IMG/VR virus record: IMGVR_UViG_3300021375_000014
Coordinates: 31,950 to 95,949 of that record
DNA: 64,000 nt
Strand: one strand, 5' to 3'
Source: a virus
The stretch's first letter is position 1; each line of letters opens with the position of its first letter. This document shows positions 397-26,305 of this stretch, piece after piece. A model generated the notes under the pieces. That model ran no database searches. It saw only the letters and a program-made list of their open reading frames with translations, and was not told the DNA's origin. Position numbers and translations under genes: made by a program.

Positions 397-414
397 TGTC
401 ATTGAAAAAGAATA

Positions 415-443: not shown

Positions 444-474
444 AGTTAAGTAATCAAAAGAAAGAGAAGATAAT

Positions 475-669: not shown

Positions 670-672
670 ATC

Positions 673-701: not shown

Positions 702-734
702 GAGTGCATAAGTTAGATAGTTAAGGAGAACATT

Positions 735-887: not shown

Positions 888-1084
888 TGGATGCTACATT
901 CGCTTGGTTTTGCAATGATATGATTAATCTAACCTATAGATCAGAAAACAAAAAAGAAAGCGGTGAAATTGATTGGAATTTTGTCGATAGCGATCTTTTC
1001 GAAAAGTGGCAAGTTCTCTTAGACGGAGAAACATATTCTGAATATTTTGATCGTGCGGCTGATATGGTGGAGAATATACAATGA
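887..1084 (+). CDS. Small hypothetical phage protein (65 aa)
   Basis: This acidic 65-residue protein is translationally coupled to both neighbours: its ATG overlaps the preceding stop (TAATG) and its end overlaps the next start (ATGA at 1081). It has no signal peptide or membrane segment and no motif I recognise. Aromatic residues are frequent (FAWFCNDM, IDWNFVDSD, SEYFDRAADM). The tight coupling suggests its product is made in step with the 247-residue protein that follows. Confidence 0.6.
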   Translation: MDATFAWFCNDMINLTYRSENKKESGEIDWNFVDSDLFEKWQVLLDGETYSEYFDRAADMVENIQ

Positions 1085-1824
1085 TTGATCCTATTAAATT
1101 TTGTAATCCCGAATTAAAAGAAAATGGTGCTTATATTAAACCAAAAACAAAACAAGAAGTTCTTGCTTTGGCAATTGCAGCACAACGTATTAACGGCGAA
1201 TATTTAAAACGTGGCGGAAAGTCAGACTTTGTTACTAGAATCGAAGATGGTGAAAAAGTCCAACGATACACACGTATTAAAGAAAGCAATCGACATGTTA
1301 TTCAAACATTAGAAGAGGTAGTTCCAAATATTCTAGAAGATACTGAGTTATTGAATGCCGCACAATCAATGCTTGATAATCTGAATATGGAATTTATGTT
1401 CAAAGTTCTCGGTGATAATATGAACGATTTTGAAACCAGTATTCATGAATTTTTGGCAGAAAATGATGATGAATTATATATTCAAAAGCATATGGGTATT
1501 ATCGCTTTTATTCCTGAATATGTAAAACGTGATACTAATAAAAAGAATTTAGAAGAACGTTCGGTTGGGTCTGAATACGTTGGAAGTAAAGGTGATAAAG
1601 TTACTATAGATATTGAGATTGTTTCCAAACGTCAGGCAACTGCCTGGGCTGGATGGAATGTAAATGCTATTACTTCCGATGGTAATCGCGTTTCATTCTT
1701 TACTACTAAAGATGATTTATCAGAAATGACTGGAATTTTTAGTATCACTGCAAAAGTTAAAGATTGCGGCACTGTTTGGGGCAATTCTGATATTAAAGAG
1801 ACCAGATTGAATTACGTGAAGTAA
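1081..1824 (+). CDS. Phage protein with a C-terminal OB-like domain (247 aa)
   Basis: The N-terminal 155 residues are helical and unrecognised. From about residue 160 the chain reads as a beta-rich module: a start near GSKGDKVTIDIEI, a central ITSDGNRVSFFTT and an ending VKDCGTVWGNSDIKETRLNYVK. This layout (strand, a DGN-aromatic-T turn, then a VK...T.L..VK end) matches an OB-like module that I know as a C-terminal add-on in many tailed-phage proteins, including nucleic-acid enzymes. The function is therefore uncertain, perhaps nucleic-acid linked. It is the last gene of the coupled early group and ends 7 bases from the convergent gene at 1832. Confidence 0.6.
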   Translation: MIDPIKFCNPELKENGAYIKPKTKQEVLALAIAAQRINGEYLKRGGKSDFVTRIEDGEKVQRYTRIKESNRHVIQTLEEVVPNILEDTELLNAAQSMLDNLNMEFMFKVLGDNMNDFETSIHEFLAENDDELYIQKHMGIIAFIPEYVKRDTNKKNLEERSVGSEYVGSKGDKVTIDIEIVSKRQATAWAGWNVNAITSDGNRVSFFTTKDDLSEMTGIFSITAKVKDCGTVWGNSDIKETRLNYVK

Positions 1825-1831: not shown

Positions 1832-2806
1832 TTATAAATCAATACAATTAGAAAAATGATGCGCTATCTTTTTATGATAGACAGGACTAGGATGTAAAAC
1901 CCAATTATTAAAGTCATGATATATATTTTCATTATCTGGTAAAAATATATCATTGATTGATATATCTGATTTTAAATTCAAAGGAGCCAAATCTCTGCCA
2001 GCCCCATATTTACAAAAAGGTTCACTAGCGTCAATAAACCATGGCTTTTCTATATTATAGTTAATATTATAATTCCTGCATATATCTTTTATACTATTAT
2101 GATAAAAATCATACTTGTCAGATTCTTGTAGTAGGTACGTTTGAATTTCTTTAAAAGAATATCCATGTTCACTTATTTTAAATTTCAGTGTTCCCAAATC
2201 ATTATTGCGTTTCTTTAGATCATCCAATGTATCGATCATTAATGGTCTATAAAAAGTATTCCCATCATACGTTCTTTTATGTTCCGCTCTTCCCTCAAAG
2301 AATCCAAGATTTATAATATCACTAGGAGGGTAATCAACATGTTTTATCCAATTTAATAAAATTCTATAAGCAGTGTTTATACCAGTACCACTAAGTCCAT
2401 AATTAATTACTTTTCGTTCCGTATAGTTCTGTAATTGATTTGTCCATCTTCTATTTTCGGGTACCCCTATACCTTCAGTAAAACTACAACCAAAGCACCA
2501 TATTTCATTTTGTGTATTATTTTTTGTATAATCGAAACTGCTTCGGAAGTCATAATTATTGTAACTATATTTCCATTTACAAAATTCATCTACAGTGTAG
2601 TTGTCAATGCCAATTGTAAAAATTTCTTTCAATTTATCTTTATATGATTGTTCATGTTTTAGAACTGATTCGATAGTTCTCTCTTCGTCATTTCTATTAT
2701 TACTGAATTTACCGTGCGATGTCTTTTGTTCTATTAATATATCTTTGCTCGTTACTTTTCTTCCAAAATCTGGATATATTCCACGTGCGTACAGTTCAAA
2801 CTTCAT
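1832..2806 (-). CDS. SGNH/GDSL-type hydrolase (acyl- or acetyl-esterase-like)
   Basis: The SGNH signature is clear: block I at about residue 106 (GCSFTEG, with the Ser as nucleophile), block II as NYGLSGTG, block III as NLGFFEGR, and a C-terminal HPSPVYHKKIA supplying the catalytic His. Members remove or transfer acyl groups on sugars, lipids or glycans in the cytoplasm or envelope. Block III lacks the usual GxND asparagine, so the oxyanion hole is altered. I start at ATG 2806; a GTG at 2815 in the same frame is possible. It is the last gene of the long minus-strand unit with the sulfotransferase and cytidylyltransferase-like genes, which suggests it trims or loads O-acyl groups on the same product. 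Confidence 0.75.
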   Translation of the reverse strand: MKFELYARGIYPDFGRKVTSKDILIEQKTSHGKFSNNRNDEERTIESVLKHEQSYKDKLKEIFTIGIDNYTVDEFCKWKYSYNNYDFRSSFDYTKNNTQNEIWCFGCSFTEGIGVPENRRWTNQLQNYTERKVINYGLSGTGINTAYRILLNWIKHVDYPPSDIINLGFFEGRAEHKRTYDGNTFYRPLMIDTLDDLKKRNNDLGTLKFKISEHGYSFKEIQTYLLQESDKYDFYHNSIKDICRNYNINYNIEKPWFIDASEPFCKYGAGRDLAPLNLKSDISINDIFLPDNENIYHDFNNWVLHPSPVYHKKIAHHFSNCIDL

Positions 2807-2858
2807 TTCTAACACTTTCGCTGGTAAAAATATAGGTTTCTAAGTTTTTTTCTAAAAT

Positions 2859-3656
2859 TCATATATCTATCAACAAATTTTTATTTTTTTCATTAACAGG
2901 TAGATTAGTTATTCGTAATAATTCATCAATATGAATGTTTTTACTTTTTAGCATTTCATCGAACATCTCATACTCACTTAGTTTTGTAACTTTTTTGGAA
3001 TCCAAATTTGAATTATCCAGGAGGGTATTTGCATCATATTGTTCATGTAAATTGTCATAATCCAATCCAAAAATTTCCAAGTCTTTTGTTGTAAATATTA
3101 AGTCTTCGTACCAAATATTAGTTACTTCATATTTTTTTGTTAAATTGTACCAATGACTAATTAATTTACAGATATAAATTATATCTTTTACTTCTACACT
3201 GAGATGGTCAAATTCTTGTATATCAATTTCGTGTATAACATTCCATACTCCTGTCTGTTTACTTTTTAAAAATGAAATTACTGTATGTTTCCAATTTTTT
3301 CTACCAATAGAAAATAAATTAGTAGTGTCACGTATAGTTTGATAGTCCATTTCAAACATTAAGTCATTTATTATTATTTTCCAAACAGTATATATATCTT
3401 TTTCGTTATAATCATATAAACTCTTTACTACAGTGTTAGTAGTAGTCACATCTCTATAATTTTTTACTTCTCCTGGATTCCAATCTACATCTGTAATTAA
3501 GTCGTTAGTAAACACAAAGTTGCCACCAAAATCAGGTCCGCTGTGGCGAAATCTAGGATAAAATCGCATGTTAAAATAACGCTGTAACAAATACATCAAA
3601 TACGTTGATCCAGATCTTGGATGTGCTAATAGAACAAATTGTTTATAATTCTTCAT
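2859..3656 (-). CDS. Sulfotransferase-like protein
   Basis: Residues 11-20 (AHPRSGSTYL) form the 5'-phosphosulfate-binding loop typical of PAPS-dependent sulfotransferases. The length (265 aa) fits the family. These enzymes move a sulfate from PAPS to a hydroxyl or amine of a sugar, lipid or other acceptor. The second PAPS-binding motif (3'-phosphate loop) should lie in the middle third; KQTGVWNVIHEIDIQEFDHLSVE and the region after it are not a textbook match. Its start overlaps the stop of the cytidylyltransferase-like gene by 4 bases. Sulfotransferases occur in some marine T4-like phages, where their acceptors are unknown. Confidence 0.78.
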   Translation of the reverse strand: MKNYKQFVLLAHPRSGSTYLMYLLQRYFNMRFYPRFRHSGPDFGGNFVFTNDLITDVDWNPGEVKNYRDVTTTNTVVKSLYDYNEKDIYTVWKIIINDLMFEMDYQTIRDTTNLFSIGRKNWKHTVISFLKSKQTGVWNVIHEIDIQEFDHLSVEVKDIIYICKLISHWYNLTKKYEVTNIWYEDLIFTTKDLEIFGLDYDNLHEQYDANTLLDNSNLDSKKVTKLSEYEMFDEMLKSKNIHIDELLRITNLPVNEKNKNLLIDI

Positions 3657-4297
3657 TTGTAATACCTATATAAAGTCTGTGCTAATTCAAATTCTTCACG
3701 CACATCAATGTCAATTGCTTCAAATTGGTTCATAGTAAAATATTCAAACTCCAGAGGTATCATATATTTAGCTTCACGCAAGTCTTGCATTTTACACACT
3801 GTCCCTGCATAAGGGAACATATATACTGGATCAATGCCCTGGCTATATGGGTGCCATAAACCGAATGAAAAGTTAATAGGACGCTTATTCACATCCAAAT
3901 AATAATGAGTACTTGCATGTACTGCTATTTGATTTTTACCACTATATATATAGGCATCATATAATTCTTTATAACGATTAAATAATGGACAACACACAAA
4001 AGTATAAACAACATCTTGGTTATCGTCAACTGGAACATCATTATATATTTGCTCTAGTACATATGAAAATCTTGTAACATTATTACAATACTTCGCATCT
4101 CGGTGAATATAAGTTACATTTTCAGTATCTGAAACTTCTTTATCATCTGTACTTATGTAAACGTGTTCTGCTCCTGCTGCGAATAATTGTTCTAGTTTAA
4201 TGTCTACCAGTGTTTTGTCACCATCAAATATATTGTGATGCTTACCTGGTAGTCGATCACTTGTCTTTTTGTAATTTGTTACTCCTACAAATCCCAT
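3653..4297 (-). CDS. Cytidylyltransferase-like nucleotidyltransferase (NeuA/KdsB type)
   Basis: The N-terminus has a K-x-x-S-x-RLPGKH motif (residues 11-19), close to the RxxSxRLPGKN nucleotide-binding loop of CMP-sialic acid and CMP-Kdo synthetases. The C-terminus reads EAIDIDVREEFELAQTLY, matching the IDIDxxxDFxxAE ending of that family. The product probably activates an acidic or rare sugar with CTP. At 214 residues it is slightly short for the family. It overlaps the sulfotransferase gene (ATGA) and follows the unknown gene at 4299 by a single base, so the three are co-translated. An alternative is another NDP-sugar pyrophosphorylase-like activity. Confidence 0.7.
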   Translation of the reverse strand: MGFVGVTNYKKTSDRLPGKHHNIFDGDKTLVDIKLEQLFAAGAEHVYISTDDKEVSDTENVTYIHRDAKYCNNVTRFSYVLEQIYNDVPVDDNQDVVYTFVCCPLFNRYKELYDAYIYSGKNQIAVHASTHYYLDVNKRPINFSFGLWHPYSQGIDPVYMFPYAGTVCKMQDLREAKYMIPLEFEYFTMNQFEAIDIDVREEFELAQTLYRYYK

Positions 4298-4298
4298 T

Positions 4299-5186
4299 TT
4301 AATATCTTTCTATAAAACAATTATTGTTACCATATTCTAATAATCTGCGAACCAATATCGGGTCATCCGTTATTTTAAATTTTGTTTCTTTTTTCATACC
4401 AGGGAATGTGACACGTACTGTATCACTATCATCCGGTAATATGACATTGCAATTTTCTGCAAATCGTACTAAGTCAAAGTCCGGATCTCTTACATATCCT
4501 CGCTGATCAGGCTGACTCCAACCATCATGATAACTATAAAGATGCAAATGAGATACTAACCCTTCGATTTTTTCAATGAATCCCAACAGTTTTCCATCAT
4601 AACTAGATTCTAGTTGTGATATGGTAGTTATATATTTATTAACATCAATAGTATTAATTGGTATGTTAATACGACTATTATCTTTGGGTATCATTACTAT
4701 AACTCGTAGCGGCTTATCTATTATCTGGTGTGCTTGTGCTAACGTACTGCCTGGATGAATAGTGTTATGGACAATATTACTCAAGACTGGTGGCGACTTG
4801 ACTTCGGTATTAACTAATTCAGATGCTAACAATACAAGTCTTAAAAAACGACTGAATAGATTATTGTAATCTTCCTGGTCGAGGGTATCAATTATTTCAA
4901 GGTCTTTAAGAAAACTTAATCCAGTTAACACTCCATTACCACTAGGTATACTATGATACTTTTCTTGAAGATTACCCAAATTCCACAAGTAACTCATATT
5001 ATATTTCCTTGCATCAATAAAACAATCTAGTAAGGTAAATTCATCCAATACCTGTAGCCAATCTGCGTATGTTGGCTGTGCTACAGTTCTCCAACTATGC
5101 GAGGGATGAGATAATAATGCATAATCTACATCATCATCTCTTCTGTTTAGAAAAATATCATTAAATAATTTATTTTCATCATTCAT
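4299..5186 (-). CDS. Unknown protein of the radical SAM/glycan operon (295 aa)
   Basis: I do not recognise this protein. I place the start at the ATG at 5184-5186 (MNDENKLFND), which overlaps the upstream stop in ATGAATGA; the open frame extends 16 codons further but only inside the neighbour's coding sequence. It is soluble, mostly helical in the first half, with a strand-rich second half (VIVMIPKDNSRINIP). A His-rich stretch (VSHLHLYSYHDGW) near residue 225 could bind metal or substrate. Its position between the B12-type radical SAM protein and the nucleotidyltransferase suggests a role in the same pathway. Confidence 0.6.
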   Translation of the reverse strand: MNDENKLFNDIFLNRRDDDVDYALLSHPSHSWRTVAQPTYADWLQVLDEFTLLDCFIDARKYNMSYLWNLGNLQEKYHSIPSGNGVLTGLSFLKDLEIIDTLDQEDYNNLFSRFLRLVLLASELVNTEVKSPPVLSNIVHNTIHPGSTLAQAHQIIDKPLRVIVMIPKDNSRINIPINTIDVNKYITTISQLESSYDGKLLGFIEKIEGLVSHLHLYSYHDGWSQPDQRGYVRDPDFDLVRFAENCNVILPDDSDTVRVTFPGMKKETKFKITDDPILVRRLLEYGNNNCFIERY

Positions 5187-7323
5187 TATGTAGAGTAATC
5201 CCATCAAATTCTGATATATTACCAGATGCTTCAAATACTTGTTTTTCGAATGACATGTCTTCTCTTTTTATTTCATAATGTTCTATCGTTTTATCATCAT
5301 TCTGTGCAACGTGTTCAAACTTATACCAGCATTTAAATTCATAATCTCCGTTGTCATTGACATTCCATGATGCTTCACCCGATAACATTGTGGCAAGGTT
5401 CATACCAAATTCTTCCATATCTAATTCTGGATCCCATATCATTTTAAAACTATGACCACCAAACGCTTTATACATAATCCACATATGAGGTAGATTTTCG
5501 TTTGCTAAACTTGCAGCAAATTGAACTTGTATGTGGTCATGCTTGAATTTATTAAAATCTTGCTTGTCCTGTTGCGGAATATAATCTACATATTTTCCTG
5601 GATTATTCCATTTAAAATCTACAAACTTATCAAATCCGGGGCGGCTCTGGGCATTGATTACTGAGCCTTCTGCTTCATTAACACACATAGATAGCCATTG
5701 GTTCACGTATTTTAATCTAATTGCACGATGCAGGACGGTATTTTCATATCCATGGGTATACCAATTACTCATAAATTTATTATCCCACGGCTTTTCATTC
5801 CATGCTATATTATAGTCTTTCCAATTCTTATTCATATCACTAAGAGGTGCATCGCCACAAGTCATACCAGGGCTAATAACAGTTACCCAATTTCTAGTAT
5901 TATATAATACATGTAGGCTATGACACCAATCGGCAGTAGTTTCAGTAGGAAAACCTATTACCCAGTTTACATGATTTTCAATATTTGCAATTCTGGCGTC
6001 ACGCAGATTGTCTTCTATTTCCCAAACTTTAATTTTCTTCTTCATTTCGTCTAATACTTTTTCGCTTCCACTTTCAACTCCAAAACTTAATAGACTACAG
6101 CCACTTGCTTTAATTTTATGAAAGAAATCCAAATCCATTCTACCGTCACACCTTGCATAACTATTCCATCGTATATCCATTTTTCTTTCAATGATTTGGT
6201 CCACTAAGTCTCTAAAACTTTTCAAGTTGCCGTTAACTAAACTATCAACAAACCAAAATCTATTTGTTCCATATGTATCAATTTGATGCTGCATTTCATC
6301 AATAACATTATGACTGTCACGTGATCGAAATTTCCAAAAATGCGTCTCACTGCAGAAACTACACAATGCAATACAACCTCTGCTAGTTTCTATACTTACT
6401 CCACCCTGCGTAGTATATTCATTGAGATTATAGTCACTGTAATCTGGAAATGGCAGTTGATTAAGGTCTAATCTGCTTTTGACCCCGCCAAAATCATAAG
6501 GGCCTTCTGCTATTGGATAGTCACGATGATTGTCTAAAAAGCCTAAAAGCATTTCTTCTCCTTCGCCTATAATACGAACATCAAATGAATTTATTATATC
6601 AACCAAATGCTCGAGGTGACGATGCTCGGGATTAGGATCTCTATCATCTAGCCAGTCTTGAAAGGATTCTGGACCACCTATTATTATGCATATCTCAGGT
6701 GCTAATCTTTTTAATTCTTTCATCATATATGAGGTAGGTAGAAGATTGGTTGCATACATACTAAATCCAACAAATTGAGAACCATCAGCAATTATCTGCT
6801 GTATAGTTTCATCAAGTAACGGTTTGAGTGCATCTCTAATATAATTATCATAATTAGGGACCTGCCAATGATCCCAATAAATTGCATCCCACGGATCATA
6901 ATTTAACATTCTTTTAAGATGATGATATGCTTTTATATTTGTATCATGTACATTAACTTCATATCCGTTATGTCGAAGCAACGCAGATAATCGTGCAGCA
7001 TTATATGGGGGGAAGACAACACCCCATGCAGGACATACAACAAATGATATTTTACTATCAGCAAGTGGTTTGTTTAGGGAACTCCAATATTGATATTTAA
7101 TATCTGATTCGTGTTGTAGTGACCACGGTATATATTTCTTTTCAACATCCGGATTGTCTAGTTTGCCAAGATGACTATTAGCATGCCGCATTTCTTCTTC
7201 ATGCTGAATAACACTCAGAACAATTTGATCTCTATCTTCACTATCAAAATTAAATTTTGTGCGCTTTAGATTTTTTGTTGGAGTAGTCTGCAAGTTTTGT
7301 TCTTTGTTTTCTTTGTTCGGCAT
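5179..7323 (-). CDS. B12-binding-type radical SAM protein (714 aa)
   Basis: Residues about 95-270 look like a cobalamin-binding Rossmann domain (FVVCPAWGVVFPPYNAARL, VGFSMYATN, IIIGGPES, IIGEGEE), the normal N-terminal domain of class B-like radical SAM enzymes. The [4Fe-4S] motif C-x3-C-x2-C is at Cys317, Cys321 and Cys324 (SRGCIALCSFCSE). Such enzymes methylate or rearrange unactivated carbons. The usual DxHxxG cobalamin motif is not obvious (VHDTNIKAYHH is the corresponding stretch), so B12 may be bound base-on or not at all. Its C-terminal 200 residues are unrecognised. The start overlaps the upstream gene by 74 bases; a later start is possible. It is the second of four radical SAM genes from the 3' end of the unit. 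Confidence 0.85.
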   Translation of the reverse strand: MPNKENKEQNLQTTPTKNLKRTKFNFDSEDRDQIVLSVIQHEEEMRHANSHLGKLDNPDVEKKYIPWSLQHESDIKYQYWSSLNKPLADSKISFVVCPAWGVVFPPYNAARLSALLRHNGYEVNVHDTNIKAYHHLKRMLNYDPWDAIYWDHWQVPNYDNYIRDALKPLLDETIQQIIADGSQFVGFSMYATNLLPTSYMMKELKRLAPEICIIIGGPESFQDWLDDRDPNPEHRHLEHLVDIINSFDVRIIGEGEEMLLGFLDNHRDYPIAEGPYDFGGVKSRLDLNQLPFPDYSDYNLNEYTTQGGVSIETSRGCIALCSFCSETHFWKFRSRDSHNVIDEMQHQIDTYGTNRFWFVDSLVNGNLKSFRDLVDQIIERKMDIRWNSYARCDGRMDLDFFHKIKASGCSLLSFGVESGSEKVLDEMKKKIKVWEIEDNLRDARIANIENHVNWVIGFPTETTADWCHSLHVLYNTRNWVTVISPGMTCGDAPLSDMNKNWKDYNIAWNEKPWDNKFMSNWYTHGYENTVLHRAIRLKYVNQWLSMCVNEAEGSVINAQSRPGFDKFVDFKWNNPGKYVDYIPQQDKQDFNKFKHDHIQVQFAASLANENLPHMWIMYKAFGGHSFKMIWDPELDMEEFGMNLATMLSGEASWNVNDNGDYEFKCWYKFEHVAQNDDKTIEHYEIKREDMSFEKQVFEASGNISEFDGITLHNE

Positions 7324-8986
7324 TATTCATTCTCTCTATGGCGCCTGCTAGGTCAGGTAAACTTTCTTTCCAATCTTCGTTTCGTAACTTATCTAATTTT
7401 ATAGTTGTTTCTTTAAATTTATTCCAAATTTTACTATCTGGTTCTTTACTCCACATTTGCGCTAATACTTGACGTAATGAATGTTCAGTAATTTCACACC
7501 ATAACATACCATGCGTAGTACATCTTGCATCAGGCCAACGTTTCCATATATGACTGATAAATCTATTATATAATTCATCAACCTCTTGCTTTAGCCTGTC
7601 GGGTAAATGGTGTATACTATATTCTTCAGGTCCGTAAACCAAATGTACATGAATTTCATTGTTAAGTCTAGTATAATTTTGTTCCTTCATCCAATACATA
7701 AAATCCGGTAAATGAAATACATTCATTACACTACATGTAAGAGTTATTTTGCCTGTTAAGTTGTCTAGTCCTGTCGCAGTATCAATCTCATTGAGAATGC
7801 GTTCAGTTTTATTCCACTTACCAGGATGTCGGATATATTCAAAATGACTATACATCCCGTCTAAACTAAGTCCCAATGAAACATCTTTAAATTGTTTCCA
7901 TAATTTAAAATAACTTTTAGTACTTGCTGCTGCATTAGTGTTATATTCTAAGGTAACATTCTTGGAATGTCCAGCATCTATTATATTTTCTAAAAGTTCT
8001 TTATGTTTATGATTGATGGTAGGTTCGCCACCAGTAAAGTAAATTCGTTTAATATCAGTAATATTATTATTAATATCGCTCCATAATCTAGAATCTTCGT
8101 ACCAACTTTTCATATGTGGTATTTCAAGTTGTCCTTTTTTATTTGTTATAATTGCAGCTTTTTCGCCGTCTAAATCAATTATAATATTAGTGTTGCCATC
8201 GTCTTCTTGAATAGATTTATAATCTTTATACCACAAGTCACTATTTGATGGGCCACAAGTTCTACATTTTAGATTACACTTATTGCCAAATCTCAAATCC
8301 CACCATTCAATAGGAAAGTCAGCATGGGATATCGTACCGTCTTCATCTGTCATATCAAGTGCTTTTGCCATTGTATCTGGAAATGATTGATTGGCATATG
8401 CGCGCCTAGAAGACGGTATATTTGTATCGGATGAATCTTCTTCTTCCCAACATAGTTTACAAACAGAACTTCGTTTTCCTTTAAGCATGTCACTTCTGAC
8501 TGTTTTCCACAACTTTGCATTACGATGCTCCGAAATGTTGTCATTGTAGTTTAGTAATCTACCGTCATCTTTTTTTATCAATCCTACATTTGATAGTGAA
8601 TCATTAAAAATCATTTGGCAACACGCTCTGATTGTACCGTTTGCATTTGTTCCAGCATGAACCCAAGGAATACTACAAAATGTTTTATGCATTGGGTGGG
8701 ATTTATCTACTTGTTTAGGTTTAGAAGCCTCTAATTTTTTAAATTCTTTTAACCATGCAGCAAAATCAATATTACTATTTTTATATATCAATTTTTCTAT
8801 ATCATCATTGCAACGATCAGTATTCAACACAGCATATAATACTATCGGATCCGTGTCAAACTGAGCAACTGATTCTAACACATTTAGTGGACAATCTTCA
8901 TGTTCTACCATAGCAATACGTTCGGCTGCAGTACGTCTTATACTACTATCTAAATTAAACATGTTTTTATTAATTAAATCTACCAT
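7250..8986 (-). CDS. Radical SAM protein with N-terminal SPASM/twitch-like domain (578 aa)
   Basis: The radical SAM cluster motif C-x3-C-x2-C is at Cys237, Cys241 and Cys244 (NKCNLKCRTCGP), followed by a TGGEPT motif near residue 315 that contacts SAM. Before it, residues 100-180 hold a second cysteine group (FCSIPWVH, GTIRACCQ, CKLCW), the pattern of twitch/SPASM-type auxiliary cluster domains. Residues 1-75 look like a short helical repeat (RRTAAERIAMVEHEDCP...VLESVAQFDTD). Proteins of this layout are frequent in marine T4-like phages; their substrates are unknown. It ends 74 bases inside the next gene and starts one base after the gene at 8987 stops. Confidence 0.85.
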   Translation of the reverse strand: MVDLINKNMFNLDSSIRRTAAERIAMVEHEDCPLNVLESVAQFDTDPIVLYAVLNTDRCNDDIEKLIYKNSNIDFAAWLKEFKKLEASKPKQVDKSHPMHKTFCSIPWVHAGTNANGTIRACCQMIFNDSLSNVGLIKKDDGRLLNYNDNISEHRNAKLWKTVRSDMLKGKRSSVCKLCWEEEDSSDTNIPSSRRAYANQSFPDTMAKALDMTDEDGTISHADFPIEWWDLRFGNKCNLKCRTCGPSNSDLWYKDYKSIQEDDGNTNIIIDLDGEKAAIITNKKGQLEIPHMKSWYEDSRLWSDINNNITDIKRIYFTGGEPTINHKHKELLENIIDAGHSKNVTLEYNTNAAASTKSYFKLWKQFKDVSLGLSLDGMYSHFEYIRHPGKWNKTERILNEIDTATGLDNLTGKITLTCSVMNVFHLPDFMYWMKEQNYTRLNNEIHVHLVYGPEEYSIHHLPDRLKQEVDELYNRFISHIWKRWPDARCTTHGMLWCEITEHSLRQVLAQMWSKEPDSKIWNKFKETTIKLDKLRNEDWKESLPDLAGAIERMNNAEQRKQRTKLADYSNKKSKAHKI

Positions 8987-10366
8987 CTACTGTTCCTTAA
9001 AAAATTCTATTTCATTATCACTGTAATTTACAAGAGATTCCGAATTATTTATATCACGAATAGGAACTAAACTAAGTGAGCCCTTCATGCGTCCGTTTGC
9101 ACCAGGCGTATGCCACTGTGAAATATTGAGTATTTTATCACGCATTGTTTCTGCTCTTTCTAGAAATCCTGGTGGGGTCATTAGTTTTATCTCAAGCCAA
9201 TTATCTTCGTCAACTTTATCATGATGATCCATAATTATTTTACAATTTTCAATGAATCTTTCTTCGTTGCCTCGGTATAGATCCATACTAGCAAAATGTG
9301 CACTCATATTAACACTATTAATATATTTTATTGCTTCACTCCAGAATTTTGTACTTCGACTGCCATTTGTAGTTACCAATATCCATTGATTTCGAGACTT
9401 TAAATATTTTAAAATGTCAATGAATTGCGGATGCATTGTAGGTTCACCTCCACCAAAATTCCATCTGATTTGTTCGCCGTTGCCCCAATTATCGATAATC
9501 ATATCGATAGTATTTATAACAGTTTCATATGATGGAAACTTTTCAGTATTACTATGAACTGCCGGCCAACAATAGTCACATGCATAATTACATCGTCTTC
9601 CAATGTCCCATAAGATTTGATATGGAATAGGAAAGTTCATTTCTACTCCAACGCTTTCATCTATATTATCAGTGAGATAATTCTTGCCACCACGTTTAGT
9701 GCCATCATATTGATTATGTGTCACATCCAGTAACTTCATATGTTCTACGGTTTTTGCTTTACTTAAAATTACATCCGCACCGCAGCCACAACTCTTAAAA
9801 GGACAAACTGTATAATTTTCAGGTATATCAATACCTTCACGAATATTGCCTAACAACCCCCAATTTTTCGGTATGTCATCTAATGTACTTTCCCATTTCC
9901 ATGCACTTGCAGTTGTATCAATATTATCTGTTTGTATATTCTTTCCTAAATTCTTGAAAAAAGTTTCTTCTGCTTCTTTTAATGCATCTTGTAGTTTAAT
10001 ATGTTGTTCGCATGTTTCCCAACCGTTCTTAGGCAACGGCCAACCACCTATTGTATTTTCATTATACCATTCAATATGCGGATAAGAACCAAATATTCTT
10101 TCACGCTCAACCCTCCATCCTTCTACAGTTGTATCATGATGTGCAGTACTATTTCTATGACTACTGGCACAGTTGCCATTCCATATATTACCATCATAAT
10201 CTATATAAAGTCCACGCACTCCGGCACTACACTGCCATCCCTTCCATTTGTTATGTTCTCTTGCAATAGCCTCATCCACACTCATTCTAATAAACTTACC
10301 ATTCGTATCATACACACGTAGTTGTTTATTATCTAATGGAATCCGAGGATCTGATTTAATCGGCAT
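8987..10366 (-). CDS. Radical SAM protein with N-terminal SPASM-like domain (459 aa)
   Basis: The SAM-cluster motif is at Cys259, Cys263 and Cys266 (GRRCNYACDYCWP) and the SAM-contact motif is GGGEPT near residue 305. Residues 44-200 precede it and hold a second cysteine set: WQCSAGVRGLYIDYDGN, WNGNC and VCPFKSCGCGAD. The same block is found at the C-terminus of the neighbouring radical SAM protein (10356-11363), so the domain order is swapped between the two. The gene overlaps that neighbour by 11 bases. The reaction is unknown; peptide or sugar modification are both plausible for this family. Confidence 0.85.
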   Translation of the reverse strand: MPIKSDPRIPLDNKQLRVYDTNGKFIRMSVDEAIAREHNKWKGWQCSAGVRGLYIDYDGNIWNGNCASSHRNSTAHHDTTVEGWRVERERIFGSYPHIEWYNENTIGGWPLPKNGWETCEQHIKLQDALKEAEETFFKNLGKNIQTDNIDTTASAWKWESTLDDIPKNWGLLGNIREGIDIPENYTVCPFKSCGCGADVILSKAKTVEHMKLLDVTHNQYDGTKRGGKNYLTDNIDESVGVEMNFPIPYQILWDIGRRCNYACDYCWPAVHSNTEKFPSYETVINTIDMIIDNWGNGEQIRWNFGGGEPTMHPQFIDILKYLKSRNQWILVTTNGSRSTKFWSEAIKYINSVNMSAHFASMDLYRGNEERFIENCKIIMDHHDKVDEDNWLEIKLMTPPGFLERAETMRDKILNISQWHTPGANGRMKGSLSLVPIRDINNSESLVNYSDNEIEFFKEQ

Positions 10367-11363
10367 CTTCTAAGACCTCATATCTATTTTTAGGAAGTAA
10401 TTTTTTACTCATAATATCAAAGTTACAATGACACATACTTTTTGTGCACATTACAGGCTTAGTTGGCCATTTGATATTCTTTGGTAACTTCATATTACCA
10501 AGAGTTCCGCCCACTCTACACCAGCCAATCATTACACTACCATCAAAGTCTACTACAATCTGTTCTATTCCACTCCAACACAACCAACCTTTCCAGTTGT
10601 TTGTCTTATCATTAATAAAACGATGTGCACTGCTATTTTCACTTAAATTATTAACATCATCGTGCATTTGCATACTACCACGATATATAGGCCAAGACTT
10701 TGTATGTTCTATATTACTTGCTAGATCATGCCATTGTCTATCAATGTATCCTATTTGTGCATCAGTATAAGTATAAAGTGTTTCACCAAAATCTATAATT
10801 AACGGTTGCAAAGCAAGGCTAATATTTGGAATACTAATAACGGTTTCAGCAAGGTCTTGACAGATTGGCCATATTTCAGGATCATAATGCATCATTATGT
10901 TTACATGGGTACGACATTGTTCACTCATAATCTTAACTACGTTAAGAAAATGTTCGGCATCGCCTTCTTCTGGATGAAAGCTTAAGCAAACATGATCGAA
11001 TTTCTCTTTGTTCTTTTCCCACCACCGTACGGTACGACTTCCATTACTGATAAATCCAATGTCGTGTCCAATAGATTTAATATATTCAGCACACTTAATA
11101 AAATCTTTCCATAAGGTTACTTCTCCTCCAGTAAATTCGAAATATACTTTACGAGGGGAATAATGTTCTACAGTGGCATCAATGAATTCATGAATAATTT
11201 TAAAATCATTCCATCCAAAACTACCATCATTTAGTATACTAGGACAATATGAACAAGTAAAATTGCACATATTACCCAAATTCCAATTCACAACTACCCA
11301 ATCTTTACACTCACTGTGATGATGATCTAGTCGATTATAAAAGTCTTGTGGTCCTAAGGGCAT
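10356..11363 (-). CDS. Radical SAM/SPASM protein (335 aa)
   Basis: The canonical order is seen here: a radical SAM domain with Cys33, Cys37 and Cys40 (NMCNFTCSYCPS) and a TGGEVT motif near residue 78, followed by a SPASM-like cysteine domain (WLCWSGIEQIVVDFDGS, IGWCRVGG, MCTKSMCHCNFD). SPASM enzymes carry extra iron-sulfur clusters and usually act on peptides or proteins. The glutamate of the usual GGEP motif is kept but the proline is Val. The start codon directly abuts the stop of the 59-residue peptide gene, so the two are translationally coupled. Confidence 0.87.
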   Translation of the reverse strand: MPLGPQDFYNRLDHHHSECKDWVVVNWNLGNMCNFTCSYCPSILNDGSFGWNDFKIIHEFIDATVEHYSPRKVYFEFTGGEVTLWKDFIKCAEYIKSIGHDIGFISNGSRTVRWWEKNKEKFDHVCLSFHPEEGDAEHFLNVVKIMSEQCRTHVNIMMHYDPEIWPICQDLAETVISIPNISLALQPLIIDFGETLYTYTDAQIGYIDRQWHDLASNIEHTKSWPIYRGSMQMHDDVNNLSENSSAHRFINDKTNNWKGWLCWSGIEQIVVDFDGSVMIGWCRVGGTLGNMKLPKNIKWPTKPVMCTKSMCHCNFDIMSKKLLPKNRYEVLEDAD

Positions 11364-11543
11364 CTACTTATCTTTGTCCATTTTATTATTCATTTGTTCT
11401 TCCAAACGTTGCACAGATTGTAATATTTCCCATAGTTTCCAATCCATAGTTTTTGCTAATTCTAAAATTTCAGCATTAAATTCATTGTTATTTTCTTTGA
11501 CTTCATCAATTGGTGCATCCAATAGTCTTATTTTCTTAACCAT
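11364..11543 (-). CDS. Small charged protein directly before the radical SAM genes (59 aa)
   Basis: ATG at 11541-11543 is preceded by a strong AGGAG ribosome-binding site 7 bases away, and the TAG stop touches the ATG of the radical SAM/SPASM gene. The 59-residue product begins MVKKIRLLDAPIDEVK and is a probable helical hairpin or coiled coil (ILELAKTMDWKLWEILQSVQRLEEQMNNK). It contains no Cys and few Ser/Thr. It could be a cofactor-like partner, a recognition element or a peptide substrate of the radical SAM enzymes, or simply a small structural protein. Function unknown. Confidence 0.7.
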   Translation of the reverse strand: MVKKIRLLDAPIDEVKENNNEFNAEILELAKTMDWKLWEILQSVQRLEEQMNNKMDKDK

Positions 11544-11571
11544 AATTATCTCCTAGGTTATAATTTTATTT

Positions 11572-12528
11572 TTATCTATCCCAACCGGTTGATTTTTCAG
11601 TTGCCAGTGGATTTCCTACACGCTTGGGATTTATGTAAACTAATTTAAAAAAGTTTGACATTTCTGCTGTTGGATCACATAATTCCATTCCTAGCATTTC
11701 TGATAATTTATCACCTAATTCTAATGATTTATCATATAACAAGTCTTCATCGAATTCAGAATTGTCTGACAAAAATTCTGGATATATATCATCATGAAAA
11801 TAAGATTTGAACCAATCATAATCACTAATACTTTCAGTGATAAAGGTTTCATCGAAGTTGACACGATAACATCCCAGACGCGCACCATATATTGCCCATA
11901 AACCATTTTCTATATCTGCACCAATATTACACCAGGTAAGTAATCGATGATAATTCTTTGGCCAAACTTTAGTTTTAAATTTAGAAGGTTCAATAATTTT
12001 GCCTTCATCCAACGACATTTTAACACCTTCACGAAAACCACTACGAAATGCTTGAAATGGTGATCCACTATTAAATATCATTGAATATGTATTATTCATT
12101 TGCTTGTAATCTAAATCCCAACAAAAGTCAAGTTTTTTAGTTTCATTATCTGCATTCTCATGAGTCCGCATATCTAACACAAGTTGTACAGGCCAGCATT
12201 TAATGCCACCATTGCCATATACTAATCCATTTGTTATGTTCTTTGCGCCCCAGGATATTACACTTTTACTTATATCAATGTTGGTAGGAAAATTCAATAC
12301 AAGATCAAAGAATTTTTCATCAACGATATTATCACCATCAATAGTTATAAATCTATCTGATTTACTTTCACGCGCACAAGCCTTATGTGCATTATCAAAT
12401 CCTTTTACGCCATCAATACGTTTTGCGTGTGGATACTTCTTCAATAAATCGACATAATGCTCTTCTTTGTTAGGTTCATCATAACTAAGATAAAAAATAT
12501 CTAAGTCTTTAATTGTAATTGTAGTCAT
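11572..12528 (-). CDS. Phage glycosyltransferase-like protein (GT-A fold)
   Basis: The N-terminal half has the GT-A pattern: an FYLSYDEPN start, PHAKRIDGVKGFDNAHKAC, then the metal-binding DxD as ITIDGDN at Asp64-Gly65-Asp66. I recall close relatives in T4-like phages of marine bacteria, annotated as glycosyltransferases of unknown target. An NDP-sugar is the likely donor. The family usually modifies DNA bases, virion proteins or a host glycan. It begins inside the last codons of the gene at 12525 (4-base overlap) and is separated from the 59-residue peptide gene by 28 bases. Confidence 0.72.
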   Translation of the reverse strand: MTTITIKDLDIFYLSYDEPNKEEHYVDLLKKYPHAKRIDGVKGFDNAHKACARESKSDRFITIDGDNIVDEKFFDLVLNFPTNIDISKSVISWGAKNITNGLVYGNGGIKCWPVQLVLDMRTHENADNETKKLDFCWDLDYKQMNNTYSMIFNSGSPFQAFRSGFREGVKMSLDEGKIIEPSKFKTKVWPKNYHRLLTWCNIGADIENGLWAIYGARLGCYRVNFDETFITESISDYDWFKSYFHDDIYPEFLSDNSEFDEDLLYDKSLELGDKLSEMLGMELCDPTAEMSNFFKLVYINPKRVGNPLATEKSTGWDR

Positions 12529-13097
12529 AATAATCTTTTATCCTTTATTGAATAAGTTTCTAGTATCTCTTCAGTTATATACATACTTATGTCATCGTAT
12601 TTATGTATGTAGTTAATTGTATATTTTTCACCAGAAATTAACTTTTCATAATTTAAATTTACAGCATCAATTATAAAATCAGGCTCGTCTTTTAATGTAA
12701 TATAGAAATTTTGATTTAACTTAGCAAGCAATGTGGTGTCTACCGATATATCTTTTGCTAACTGAAATGAAAATCCTGTGTCAATAATATCAATAATAAT
12801 TGTCGGATTAAACATTGTTTTCAATTTTTGTATATTATTTTTTATATGTATAGGTTTTTTTCTATCTTTTTGAACAATATAATAACTCACTGTATCATTT
12901 TTGTAAATGACATGGAAATCATCAATTTTTCGTGTGCCATCTAATAAAATACTAATATCAGAAGTTTTAAAGTATGCATATGTATTATTACTATCAGAAC
13001 ACACACGGTTTTCAAATGATTCGATTGTGCCATTATCGTCAAAATAAACTATCTTGTAATCATCAGAGTCCTTTATATTTTTTATACACTCGAACAT
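12525..13097 (-). CDS. Unknown protein between two glycosyltransferase-like genes (190 aa)
   Basis: I do not recognise this 190-residue protein. It is beta-rich and Ile/Asp-rich, with no Cys motif, signal peptide or membrane segment. The central stretch PTIIIDIIDTGFSFQLAKDIS and the C-terminal ISMYITEEILETYSI suggest a compact mixed alpha/beta domain. Its first codons overlap the end of the gene at 13082, and its end overlaps the start of the glycosyltransferase at 12528, so it is translated as part of the same unit. It may be an accessory subunit or acceptor-specificity factor. Confidence 0.6.
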   Translation of the reverse strand: MFECIKNIKDSDDYKIVYFDDNGTIESFENRVCSDSNNTYAYFKTSDISILLDGTRKIDDFHVIYKNDTVSYYIVQKDRKKPIHIKNNIQKLKTMFNPTIIIDIIDTGFSFQLAKDISVDTTLLAKLNQNFYITLKDEPDFIIDAVNLNYEKLISGEKYTINYIHKYDDISMYITEEILETYSIKDKRLL

Positions 13098-13942
13098 AAT
13101 ACTACATCCTCATATTTTTCAATAATTGAATCTGTGAGCCAATCTTTTTCTACATAATGAAATGGCATTATTATTTCTTGATTATTAACAACAATTCTCA
13201 AATCATCAGTTACATAACTTGGCAATGTTTTATTCCAAGCAGAAGATATACTTCTATTTGGTATATTCTGTACGTGACTTTTCATATGTACAAATTTGGG
13301 AACAACTGAGTTGATAGTAATAGAACTATTTGATGGGAACAACTTTGCAGCCAGAGAGAATGCAATATCAGCACTTATCCAATCTTGCCCTTCATCATCC
13401 AAGTATGCATTATAGTAATAATCCCAATTTTCCATAATATCTTGAACTAATCTAAAGTATTGAAATGATTTTTTAGATTTATTAAAGTAAGTAAAATTAC
13501 TGTATATGTCAGGAAGTTCACAACTTGTAAATTTTTTACGATAATAATCACTTGTTACTGGTTTATCTCTAAATGTTCTGGCATTGGAACATAAGCATAC
13601 ATCCGATGAGGCTAGAATGTCCCACCAATGATCGACTGACGCAGTAAACAACTGGTCAGAATCGAGTATAATAGTTTGGTCGAATGGAGACATATGAATA
13701 TATTTCCATTTATTTTCTATTTTCCATGTCGAAGATGCCGCATTATCTTTCCAGGGTATATCAATTATGTGGTCAAATATATCGATATGCTTTTGTTCTA
13801 ATCTATCGCCAGTCTTGTTATCAACACAAAGACAAACTAAATTTTCTTCTTGTGTTGCTTTTATACTCAGCGCCAACGCATATGACAATCGCAAGTGGTC
13901 AACATCTGAATTTTGAGCAATTATAATGTAACCTCTACTCAA
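13082..13942 (-). CDS. GT-A glycosyltransferase-like protein (286 aa)
   Basis: The first 100 residues follow the GT-A/GT8-like plan: a YIIIAQNSDVDHLRLSYALALSIK start, a middle substrate-contact strand, and the DxD as IILDSDQLF at Asp94 and Asp96. The neighbour at 13939 has the same length and the same plan, so the two are probably paralogues. The only start at the right place is a TTG at 13940-13942 that overlaps the upstream stop (TTGA); this is unusual but fits coupled translation. It should transfer a sugar from an NDP-sugar; donor and acceptor are unknown. Confidence 0.68.
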   Translation of the reverse strand: MSRGYIIIAQNSDVDHLRLSYALALSIKATQEENLVCLCVDNKTGDRLEQKHIDIFDHIIDIPWKDNAASSTWKIENKWKYIHMSPFDQTIILDSDQLFTASVDHWWDILASSDVCLCSNARTFRDKPVTSDYYRKKFTSCELPDIYSNFTYFNKSKKSFQYFRLVQDIMENWDYYYNAYLDDEGQDWISADIAFSLAAKLFPSNSSITINSVVPKFVHMKSHVQNIPNRSISSAWNKTLPSYVTDDLRIVVNNQEIIMPFHYVEKDWLTDSIIEKYEDVVLCSSV

Positions 13943-14799
13943 TTTGCCATACCATATTCAAAGAAACTGTCTATATTTTTCATAATGCTTCCCTTGTTCA
14001 TTATGTGCAAATCAGTATTCTGAATCCTAACCATATTGCCACTTTTTTTATTCATCTTAGTAAGCATTAAAATATTAGTCGGACTATCAATTCTAAAGAT
14101 TCTATCTGTATCAAAACTATTCATCAAGCAATTTATAGGCAATTTAGGAACAATATCATTCATACCATTTGTAATAATATGAAGTGCAATTGAAAACGTA
14201 TGGTCATTACGATATAATTTTATATCACAGGAATACTTTTTATAATACCACTTCCAATTATTTTTTATGATATCAACCATACTAAATAACATTGAAGTAA
14301 ATTCACTCTTTCTAAAATAAAGTAACGTTGCCCAATACATGTCAATGCTGGTGTTAGATATTTTAATAACGCTATCTAAATTATTGTTAGAAATATCAGA
14401 ATAGTTTTTAGTAATCATGAAATCGTTTTTACTTCCCCATACACCATCCAATACATCAGACATTATAAAATAATCACAATCAATTACTAGAGTTTCATCA
14501 TACGGTGATAAGTTATAAACATTTCCTCTATTAGTATTAATAAATTTCGCATTTACTGAATCACTATAAGTATCATGATATTTACGAGTAGTGGCATCAG
14601 TGGGAACTGGTACTATGATGGTTCTATCAAAATACATATTAACTAATTCTTCATTGCCAGATAATGATTCTTTATCTGTAACTAAACATATTTCATGAAA
14701 TCCAGACAAGTTTCTTCTTGCATAGCCTGCACTTGCACATGCTATCATAACATAATCTATATACTTATTATTATGGGAAAATATTATTATACCATTCAT
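13939..14799 (-). CDS. GT-A glycosyltransferase-like protein, paralogue (286 aa)
   Basis: The protein begins MNGIIIFSHNNKYIDYVMIACASAGYARR and carries a DxD as ETLVIDCDYFI at Asp107 and Asp109. Length and order of elements match the gene that follows, which points to a local duplication. The C-terminal third has a DxH-containing HTFSIALHIITNG segment that may complete the metal site. Its ATG overlaps the preceding stop (TAATG). It is the second gene after the promoter at 15175-15203. Confidence 0.66.
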   Translation of the reverse strand: MNGIIIFSHNNKYIDYVMIACASAGYARRNLSGFHEICLVTDKESLSGNEELVNMYFDRTIIVPVPTDATTRKYHDTYSDSVNAKFINTNRGNVYNLSPYDETLVIDCDYFIMSDVLDGVWGSKNDFMITKNYSDISNNNLDSVIKISNTSIDMYWATLLYFRKSEFTSMLFSMVDIIKNNWKWYYKKYSCDIKLYRNDHTFSIALHIITNGMNDIVPKLPINCLMNSFDTDRIFRIDSPTNILMLTKMNKKSGNMVRIQNTDLHIMNKGSIMKNIDSFFEYGMAN

Positions 14800-15143
14800 T
14801 ATATTTCTAATGCTATTTCAATTTTTGATGAACTACGCAACTGTTCATACTGCATATAAAAATCATTCACAACTTCAAAATATTTACAAGAGACAGTTTC
14901 TAATAGTTCGACAATATCATTTATTCTAATAGGCAAATTATTTCTATCTAGAATGACAATGGTTTTCTTATTATTTTGTACAGCATAATTCAAGAATCCA
15001 ATAAATTCTTGAGTTATATCAAACGATCCACCATTTTCATGATGTATTAGAGCAGTTGAAACTTTATCTTGCATAATCTTTTTATTAAGATTAAATGTAC
15101 ACAATGTGTTTCTATAGGATAAAATATCTTGTAAATCTTCCAT
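14799..15143 (-). CDS. First gene of the radical SAM/glycan operon, unknown (114 aa)
   Basis: I do not recognise this protein. I choose ATG 15143 (MEDLQDILSYRN) because a TGGA ribosome-binding site lies 9-12 bases upstream, and because the longer frame from 15206 would begin inside the -35 box of the promoter at 15175-15203. The middle reads like a Rossmann-type strand (KKTIVILDRNNLPIRINDIVELL), so it may bind a nucleotide or form an alpha/beta accessory domain. As the promoter-proximal gene, it may have a regulatory or early role in the pathway. Confidence 0.6.
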   Translation of the reverse strand: MEDLQDILSYRNTLCTFNLNKKIMQDKVSTALIHHENGGSFDITQEFIGFLNYAVQNNKKTIVILDRNNLPIRINDIVELLETVSCKYFEVVNDFYMQYEQLRSSSKIEIALEI

Positions 15144-15174
15144 TATAATAATTCCACTAATATTAATCTCTTCT

Positions 15175-15203
15175 ACTATATCATAGCAAGACCAATATGT
15201 CAA
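15175..15203 (-). promoter_or_regulatory. Early-type promoter for the radical SAM/glycan unit
   Basis: Read on the minus strand, TTGACA lies at 15203-15198 and TATAGT at 15180-15175, with a 17-base spacer. The next start on that strand is ATG 15143, about 30 bases downstream. The thirteen genes down to 1832 follow with overlaps or short gaps (largest 52 bases) and no terminator that I can see, so one long transcript is likely. No late-type GATAAATAC box is present here. Confidence 0.78.
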
Positions 15204-16267: not shown

Positions 16268-16277
16268 TCACCACTCC

Positions 16278-17014: not shown

Positions 17015-20000
17015 TTATATTATGTGCTTATCTACTTGTTCTGCCATAAACTGTATTGTTTCGATGTTTGATACTATATGTACAGTATCACCAACTTGAA
17101 TATCTAGGCATGTGCCGTTAAATAATCCACGTTCATTAATTTGTAATACGCTTCCATCTTTTTTATTATAGTGCATAAACTCTAATTTATTTTCGGCATT
17201 TTCAACTATTATTAGATAAACAGTGTTTGCAATTGCGTGTTTAAACTTTGTTTCATCTGCAATCTCGATATTTCTATAACCGTGGTCATTTGTTACTGCT
17301 ACTACTGTATCGGTATCAATACTATGCATAAAGTGTCCACGTCCAAGTCTATCATACACTATAAATGAACGCTTGTCAATTACTGCAGTACCAATACCGC
17401 CCACAATACTTGAATCATATTCATCCACTCTTACAATTGCAGACTCTAAAATTCTACTATCTACTAGTCCAGTATCTATACCACCTTTCGTCGCAGTAAC
17501 TTCGTATGGATGACGTAATAATGCACCTTGCTCGTAGCTACCATCTGCTATATTTGGATGGTCATCATCTGGTGCAATACCACCATCATATGTATTATAA
17601 TCGTACCTACTATAATCGCCACCCAAATCAATTTTTAAATTCATATGATGTGAACTATCTACATCAGCATTAACAGTTTCACTTAGCGGATAAATTCTGT
17701 CAGTGTTTCTAAGTTTAACATGATATGGTTTTGCTTCCAATACATACTCAATTGTATCATCAAATGTATCGTTCTGATATATTGCATATTGTCTTAATGG
17801 TTTGTTCATTAAGATTAAGTCAATATAACTCGTTTTGAACAACCACTCAGGATGTTCTCTTTCAGTATACATGTATGATAACATATCAAAAAATAAATCT
17901 TTAATAACTTTATTTTCTGAATAAGAATAAAGCATATTAATAAATTCGTGCACTTGTACATTAATAACATTAGTGTAATATTGTGAAATAGTATTAGCAT
18001 TTCCTGTCTGACCAGGTATTGCAATATTATTAAAATCTATATTAAGCGCACCGTTAATCTTGTTAACCATAGTGATTTCTTCAGGTGAACCATAACCAAA
18101 GTAAACTTCTTCATACTCAGGATTTACTACACCAAAAGAACGTATACCAGAATTAAACATACTAATCATATCAATATCTCGGGTATTACTCAGATATTCA
18201 AATTGAGTTATTTCTTTGTAATCTGGATGTTTATACCAATCAATTGAATTGAAAATGTAGTGGTTTAATTTAATGTAATCTTTGTAAAATGGATATTCGG
18301 TTTCTATTAACACAGTGCCTAACATCGTGTTTACAACTGTTGAAAAATTATTTCTAGCATTTGTCAGGTTTTTATACCAAGAGTTGGAGATTGCGCCGAC
18401 TTGATAAACTCTGACAACATCACCTACTATAACATTGAATGTGTTATTAATTCTTAATTCGGTGCCATTTAAGTTAAAGTTTGTAAGTTCTAAGAACTCA
18501 TTATTAACTGAAATTGCAAGATTTTCGGGCGACAAGTCAAGCAAGAAATCAATTGAAAGTAATGCGCCATCATTGTCTAAATTTGGGTAATCGATTATAA
18601 TTTGTTTTAAATTTTCAATTTTAGAATCTGCAATACTATTTTTAAAATCTTCTAAATATTTGGACATTATAGGCTTTGTAGATTCTCTTGATAATAGTTC
18701 CCAGTCATCGTGCCTGCCTTGATTATTAGATGCAATGCTATATTCAGTTGTCACTGTTATTGTACTATTTAATGACCGAGAGTTATAATTTAAGATTATA
18801 GTATTATTATCAATTGGTATAAATTTATGTTTAATTTGTCCAGTCTCAATAATCATTTTAATTTCATCAGTACTATATTCTTTTTCGTATCTAGGCAATG
18901 TACCAATTGAAGTCCAATAATAATATGTTGTTACTTCTTTATTCTTAACTGGATCCCATTCTTTTTCTTGATTGAACCAAGTAATACCAACAGGAAGTAC
19001 ATTGTTCTTAACCCATTGCTTGATCTCTACTACCGAACCGTCAACAATTTTACCCCAGTTACGCATTGCATACTCAACCGAGATATTGCCATTGGCATCA
19101 CCATAATCATTGTATCTATAAAAACGTGTGCTAGTAGTATCCCACCAAATTTCACCTAAATGTTCTTCTAACCACAAATCGTTACTTAGATATTCATCAT
19201 ACTTAGCAGGATCATTCCAATCTACATAATCAATATCTTTCATGACTTTGCCAGGTAATTTTAAGTTTAGCGGATCATACAATGTATGAATTATATGTTC
19301 TTCTCCATCTGTTACGATAACTCTGTTAACATTGCTAACATCTACTTCATTTGCTTTTCTATTAACAATTTCAATATTACCAATCGCGGTTCTATTCAGT
19401 ACTGCCCAATCGTTTAGACCGGGATATGAGTCTGCCCATATTTTACTAGCAGTATTTAATCCTAAATCATTATAGAATTCATCAAATGTCGCACCATTAT
19501 ATCCTGGAGTAAATCTAACTGATTTCCATCTCATAACTTTAAAGTTTGCATTACTGGTAACACTGGTATATTCTGTGTAAAACCCTATCTTGTCTAACAA
19601 ATTTTGAGAAGTGCCAGCAAAAGATAATTGTAATGCCGGACTTGTTATAATGAAACGTCCATCAGATGATATACTTGCTGTTAACGTAGATGATTGTTGA
19701 TTAATTATATCTCTAAATGTAAGAAGTGATGAATTTGCTAGACCCGAAGTTAAATATTCCCCTTCGGATATTCCTAAATCATCTAGTGGATTACCAGTTA
19801 CATCAGAAATAATTACCTTAAATTCATCACCTGATATCAATAATCGATCAACAAATGCTATACTAGCAACTAAATTAGTTTCAAGTGATAGTATAGAATT
19901 TATATCATCTACAATATTATCCAACATGTTAGAAGTTATCGTATTAGAAGTGAATCCTAGACGCACCATTGATCCATTATTCAAAGGATCAGATACCACC

Positions 20001-26302: not shown

Positions 26303-26305
26303 TTT

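Follow-up and report, generated by a model that had tools for sequence, protein, structure and literature searches.

Cassettes of radical S-adenosylmethionine (SAM) genes are carried together with glycosyltransferase genes by T4-like marine phages, next to their tail fibres, and modification of the O-chain has been proposed for them (PMC7029224); in addition, the T4-like environmental genome TARA_ERS488813_N000010 has 12 radical SAM genes (PMC5332604). We describe here an operon of glycosyltransferase and radical SAM genes, g14 to g01, from the virus record IMGVR_UViG_3300021375_000014. The stretch analysed, called the window below, is 64,000 nucleotides long and corresponds to bases 31950–95949 of the 95,949-base record; positions are those of the window unless the contig is named. 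As judged by comparison with relatives, the operon falls into two pieces, a conserved head that adjoins tail genes (g14–g10) and an exchangeable cassette (g09–g01). We put at about one half the probability that this tail-adjacent operon serves to build or remodel a glycan or glycolipid of an unusual kind, whose most likely site is the envelope of the infected cell.

The composition of the operon became apparent when g10 was used as bait, which matched at least 569 viral stretches, and 62 non-redundant relative loci were compared. The nearest relative (L012) contains every operon gene in the same order, at 65–97% protein identity, and a second lineage (L013, L014 and L017) keeps the order at 33–83% identity without g02 and g09. 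The gene-neighbourhood comparison that a preliminary description of this DNA had proposed as a check thus finds the order kept in two diverged lineages, at 33–97% identity, and the possibility that the genes are never co-inherited fails. The five-gene head is co-inherited, adjoining tail genes, in relatives: g14, g12/13 and g11 are present in 53 of the 57 non-redundant loci with enough flank. Radical SAM genes of the N_Twi type lie downstream of the head in 42 of 49 loci and upstream in only 4 of 57, the tail-region genes flanking the head on the opposite side. Within the cassette, the sets g08-g07-g06-g05 and g05-g04-g03-g01 are retained in diverged lineages.

Cassette exchange is seen most clearly in L052, where DNA similarity extends from the tail genes to the g10 stop (window 11571), is then lost, and returns at the w1 stop (window 1821); the intervening 7.2 kb are occupied by another gene set, which includes two other enzymes of the N_Twi-like type. 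The same backbone with the same alternative set is found in L040, and in L039 the change sets in after g08. Because of these replacements, g09–g01 is regarded as an exchangeable cassette. As in the host recognition clusters of T4-like phages, a variable island with glycosyltransferases thus stands beside tail genes. The claim that the genes form one unit holds in so far as they are co-inherited with a host-type promoter; the unit is, however, a composite of head and cassette, and is paired with a larger second block to its left.

Fourteen minus-strand genes fill positions 15143 to 1832 (Table 1). Thirteen had been counted in the preliminary description, which gave the named genes their correct place and strand and whose own list sums to 14. 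Neighbouring genes overlap or abut almost throughout, the successive gaps counted from g01 being 43, −4, 1, −8, −74, 0, −11, 0, 28, −4, −16, −4 and −1 bp, with 43 bp as the largest. A consensus match alone was rejected as evidence for the promoter placed at 15175–15203, since 120 promoter-like sites were observed where 98.7 were expected. Conservation then supported it. Each of the 14 near relatives inspected has a site with an exact 17-bp spacer at a like distance from g14. Of 62 relatives, 31 have a site with this spacer and a score of 10/12 or more in the 120 bp preceding g14, as compared with 82 of 1625 background tiles (5%). The conserved sites are mostly 48–58 bp from the g14 start, and no site other than the g14 promoter reaches a score of 11/12 ahead of any operon gene. 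Since position and exact spacer are conserved in relatives, we accept the promoter at 15203–15175 as real on comparative grounds; g14 therefore starts at the ATG at 15143 and not at the long-ORF (open reading frame) start at 15206. A single transcript would cover all 14 genes, and the host-type promoter suggests that they would be expressed early.

The sugar activation and transfer theme of the preliminary description is supported, and three proteins have remote profile matches. In the g12/g13 family, D94, D96 and H262 are invariant in 40 sequences, corresponding to the DxD motif and metal-binding histidine of GT8 enzymes, and the joint profile matches glycogenin over residues 4–109 (E = 1.7e-7); no match to Pfam GT8 was returned for either protein. 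The third, g03, matches CTP_transf_3 with 23.9 bits (cut-off 22.6), over the first third of the protein only, and its profile matches in the PDB are exclusively cytidine monophosphate (CMP)-3-deoxy-D-manno-octulosonate (Kdo) synthetases (KdsB), with a best E-value of 0.005; the search of cellular sequences returned no relative of g03. The Foldseek search with the g10 model, itself a confident one, was headed by GT-A enzymes at template modelling (TM) scores of just 0.2–0.3, for which reason the protein is called only GT-A-like, and a PDB sequence search with g10 gave chance matches only. Structure prediction, suggested earlier for the unknown proteins, produced an all-beta model of g11; the fold search found no PDB relative for it, its good structural matches being proteins of uncultured Caudovirales only.

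The four radical SAM enzymes, one of them of the B12 type, are confirmed: all lie above the Radical_SAM cut-off and keep the CxxxCxxC motif. For g05 the B12-binding domain PF02310 scores 32.8 bits (cut-off 32.1) and PF04055 51.7 bits, which places it in class B. With 341 bits against a cut-off of 170, g06 belongs to N_Twi_rSAM (NF033640), and its cysteines are invariant in the alignment. The core and the SPASM-like cysteine domain are common to g07 and g08, in reversed order. A Pfam search of g04 gave no match. Some bacteria encode about ten to thirty N_Twi enzymes per genome and these phages several to many, and no function for them was found.

Table 1. Features of the operon and its borders (window positions)
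Feature	Position	Strand	Description	Evidence or remark
Promoter	15175..15203	-	TTGACA-N17-TATAGT, extended TG, sigma-70-type	Consensus score 11/12; position and spacer kept in relatives
g14	14799..15143	-	114-aa small protein, ATG 15143	ORF list; family alignment; in 53/57 non-redundant loci
g13	13939..14799	-	GT8-like glycosyltransferase	Invariant DxD and C-terminal His; glycogenin profile match
g12	13082..13942	-	GT8-like glycosyltransferase, paralogue of g13, TTG start	Alignments; glycogenin profile match
g11	12525..13097	-	All-beta protein	Model pLDDT 88.9
g10	11572..12528	-	GT-A-like protein, last gene of head	Invariant DxD (D64, D66); model pLDDT 90.9
g09	11364..11543	-	59-aa small protein	Only in near lineages (six loci); missing from second lineage
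g08	10356..11363	-	Radical SAM, C-terminal SPASM-like Cys	Pfam; Cys pattern
g07	8987..10366	-	Radical SAM, SPASM-like Cys domain at N-terminus, permuted paralogue of g08	
g06	7250..8986	-	N_Twi_rSAM: radical SAM core preceded by N-terminal twitch/SPASM-like domain	
g05	5179..7323	-	B12-binding (class B) radical SAM	Pfam and class B profile matches
g04	4299..5186	-	ATG 5186	Occurs only together with g05/g03
g03	3653..4297	-	Putative CMP-sugar (KdsB-like) synthetase fold	CTP_transf_3; KdsB profile matches
g02	2859..3656	-	Stf0-type sulfotransferase	PF09037 24.7 bits, marginally above cut-off (22); missing from second lineage
g01	1832..2815	-	SGNH/GDSL-like protein, GTG start, cassette end	GDSL_2 E 1.4e-4, weak, below cut-off
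w1	1081..1824	+	247-aa protein, border of cassette exchange	94-96% identity in L052/L040
Tail-region ORF	17015..26302	-	3095-aa structural protein, VrlC-like position	ORF list; syntenic in relatives; flanks head module opposite cassette

The second radical SAM block lies 1.8 kb from the operon, on the minus strand of the contig to the left of the window (contig 15389–31864), and brings the total of the record to about 12 radical SAM enzymes. Besides eight more radical SAM ORFs, it contains two QueC-like PP-loop proteins that score near the cut-off, two methyltransferase-like paralogues, a paralogue of g10, a NodU-type carbamoyltransferase and an SGNH-like protein, and it is bordered by a thymidylate synthase gene with an ordinary full-length match. 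Deazaguanine DNA was considered on account of the QueC-like genes and set aside, partner genes being lacking. A perfect TTGACA-17-TATAAT promoter is found upstream of the second-block gene a05. A basic peptide of 37 residues with the end RKRDPFIYK is encoded at contig 30482–30628 (L010:11483–11629, minus strand), overlapping the NodU carbamoyltransferase at its beginning; its homologues stand beside NodU in G003, G007, G008, G020, G026 and G027, another occurs in the marine bacterial locus L127, and a Pfam search of the peptide gave nothing above the cut-off. The two radical SAM blocks are separated by short plus-strand genes (window 1–1824), among which w1 is kept at 55–96%.

Homologues of both blocks are found in bacteria. 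On Bdellovibrionota chromosomes, the second-block families a01, a05, a09, a11 and a13 are clustered again, the orthologues of a05 and a01 having 57–61% and 58–70% identity, respectively; the neighbourhood holds 13 GT2 matches among 99 ORFs, with an epimerase and an acyltransferase also near. The N_Twi profile finds 15–30 matches in each of nine of the 11 bacterial genomes examined and 7 in each of the other two, and none above the cut-off in 14 control genomes. Three independent neighbourhoods point to glycans. In G008, the g03 homologue sits with KdsA, KdsB, a uridine diphosphate (UDP)-sugar dehydrogenase and an epimerase; in the 246-kb relative G020, a DegT aminotransferase, a C-methyltransferase, an epimerase and a UDP-sugar dehydrogenase lie within the same island. 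The third belongs to an isolated phage: N_Twi enzymes are matched by the Vibrio phages K566 and K567, and in K566 (L011, OZ196521.1 161548–178915) five N_Twi-like radical SAM genes lie with two GT8 genes, LpxC and PagP within about 18 kb, the latter two a few kilobases from the N_Twi enzymes, and with a GT4-like gene. Searches of isolated phages gave no detectable homologue of g12, g10 or g03, and nothing when the G007 homologues of g13 and g14 were used; within the collection searched, the set occurs in no cultured phage.

Two further observations concern the surroundings of such enzymes. A conserved 74-aa family with the core ATNNN..FNKxAHHNSQxWY occurs in 15 phage and marine bacterial loci (for example at L033:6166–6354, L074:12632–12856 and L127:8669–8893) and adjoins an a09-type radical SAM gene where inspected; the protein is a candidate substrate or partner of the radical SAM enzyme. 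Among distant N_Twi relatives (L176, L163 and L182), those of Paenibacillus and Sphingomonas stand beside acyl-carrier-like and ketosynthase-like ORFs, as judged from the sequence start only, and that of Synechocystis forms part of a very long ORF whose start resembles a sulfotransferase.

It is because of the three neighbourhoods in G008, G020 and K566 that we favour a host surface glycoconjugate as the product. The head would supply two GT8-like transferases, one GT-A-like transferase and two accessory proteins, and the cassette would supply the tailoring chemistry, with four radical SAM enzymes and CMP activation of a Kdo-like acid sugar; sulfation and acyl handling may be optional cassette steps. 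The radical SAM, PP-loop and carbamoyltransferase proteins of the second block may contribute to the same glycan or glycolipid. The phage would benefit if a receptor for competing phages were thereby blocked or altered, and cassette exchange would change the glycan structure, as it does with bacterial serotype cassettes. Several points weigh against this view. Among the operon genes, none was recognised as encoding a polymerase, a flippase or a lipid-linked transferase (the record lacks the rest of the genome); the matches of g12/g13 and g03 are remote, and the fold match of g10 is poor (TM 0.2–0.3). For the N_Twi family of radical SAM enzymes, we found no characterised representative that could anchor the chemistry, and adjacency to the tail module suits modification of the virion equally well.

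Since the module borders tail genes, glycosylation of the virion is indeed the main rival. The glycosyltransferases would then modify neighbouring tail or tail-fibre proteins with a donor sugar made by the radical SAM set, shielding the virion or tuning adsorption. This would agree with the position of the head beside tail genes in one relative after another, with the resemblance of g12 and g13 to glycogenin, which is a protein glycosyltransferase, and with the all-beta g11, whose good structural matches are to phage proteins only. However, the operon has its own host sigma-70-type promoter, LpxC and PagP in K566 as well as KdsA and KdsB in G008 point to lipid A or lipopolysaccharide, and bacterial chromosomes hold an orthologous radical SAM set at loci that, where read, show no evident phage tail genes. 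We therefore consider decoration of the virion a serious but rather doubtful explanation.

That a small peptide is modified by the SPASM/twitch radical SAM enzymes and later glycosylated or sulfated, in the manner of ribosomally synthesized and post-translationally modified peptides (RiPPs), appears unlikely, even though SPASM-type enzymes are classic peptide maturases and the class B profile matches include RiPP C-methyltransferases. The 74-aa family and the 37-aa peptide, which ends in DPFIYK and stands beside NodU in the contigs examined, could be invoked in its favour. Such pathways are recognised by a conserved precursor peptide encoded with its maturases, whereas g09 is found in few loci: the second lineage keeps g05–g08 without it, most loci have no homologue, and clustering of small ORFs shows none that is constant across cassettes. 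Nor was a peptidase or a transporter recognised. The preliminary description had envisaged a sulfated or acylated sugar or a modified peptide; the theme of sugar activation and transfer is supported, the peptide part is weakened by the absence of g09 from the second lineage and most loci, and sulfation is not a fixed step, since the second lineage lacks the sulfotransferase g02.

Alternatively, unrelated cargo genes may have gathered in a hypervariable region without any common product. The cassette does vary strongly between relatives, and g02 and g09 come and go, yet the order of the head and both cassette gene sets named above survive in diverged lineages, and the a01, a05, a09, a11 and a13 families cluster again in bacteria, which makes this very improbable. 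Least likely of all is hypermodification of nucleic acids, in which QueC-like PP-loop and QueE-like radical SAM proteins would alter phage DNA or tRNA and the glycosyltransferases would glycosylate the base, because the QueC-domain proteins and the thymidylate synthase gene that suggest it lie in or at the border of the second block, outside this operon, the former with scores near the cut-off and the latter with an ordinary match, and because the set keeps company with sugar-nucleotide and lipid A genes instead.

The capsid protein (55321–56478) shares 70% identity with its PA5oct counterpart and 66–69% with those of other T4-like jumbo phages such as GAP32 and SCTP-2, and the record is a fragment of a T4-like, probably jumbo, phage. 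Since the records of these jumbo phages measure 284–470 kb, it probably covers a third or less of the genome. Amid the baseplate and tail genes, an ORF at 31349–31945 (plus strand) has the look of a ClpP protease.

T4-like genomes rich in radical SAM genes (PMC5332604) and islands beside tail genes that combine glycosyltransferases with radical SAM cassettes (PMC7029224) are thus known already, and the earlier statement that no described phage system has such a set was too strong; in the relevant parts of these papers, however, this module, its co-inheritance and cassette exchange do not appear. By its description, TARA_ERS488813_N000010 resembles the present T4-like marine-type genome in radical SAM gene number, and is reported there under iron–sulfur cluster proteins, a section without glycan context (PMC5332604). 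The host recognition cluster described for pelagimyophages and cyanomyophages is likewise a hypervariable island, located next to a large gene of the tail region and comprising radical SAM cassettes as well as glycosyltransferases of the GT8 type (PMC7029224). As compared with the cluster outlined there, the present operon is marked by a fixed head of five genes, a promoter and an exchangeable cassette of nine genes, and by radical SAM enzymes that include one of the B12 type and permuted SPASM forms, and the capsid of the phage is nearest to those of T4-like jumbo phages. New are the definition of the head, its promoter and its widespread co-inheritance with N_Twi enzymes, as are the clean exchange of the cassette, the permuted SPASM pair and the links to a cultured phage and to the islands of Bdellovibrionota.

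In the N_Twi islands of Bdellovibrionota and other bacteria, orthologues of a01, a05, a09, a11, a13/g10 and g06 cluster with GT2 genes; these islands differ in being chromosomal, and none of the head genes g14, g13 and g12 was observed there. The operon connects N_Twi radical SAM enzymes with sugar transfer and activation and defines a minimal conserved set, and the cultured pair of Vibrio phages, K566 and K567, offers a tractable model for studying function.

Serotype-converting gtr operons and O-antigen cassettes are established cases of phage-encoded glycan change and of cassette exchange between conserved borders, and both features are common to them and to the operon described here. Pfam shows neither a GtrA flippase nor a GtrB bactoprenol glucosyltransferase among the operon genes, and the gtr systems have no counterpart to its radical SAM chemistry. 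It is tempting to speculate, though only tentatively, that a widespread class of phage operons makes glycans by radical chemistry, in which paired SPASM/twitch enzymes, domain-permuted pairs included, and a B12 radical SAM enzyme would tailor a CMP-activated sugar or glycolipid, with cassettes exchanged like bacterial serotypes and a pathway partly common to Bdellovibrionota and marine bacteria. If this were true, lytic phages would carry swappable surface-remodelling programmes with a chemistry absent from known serotype conversion.

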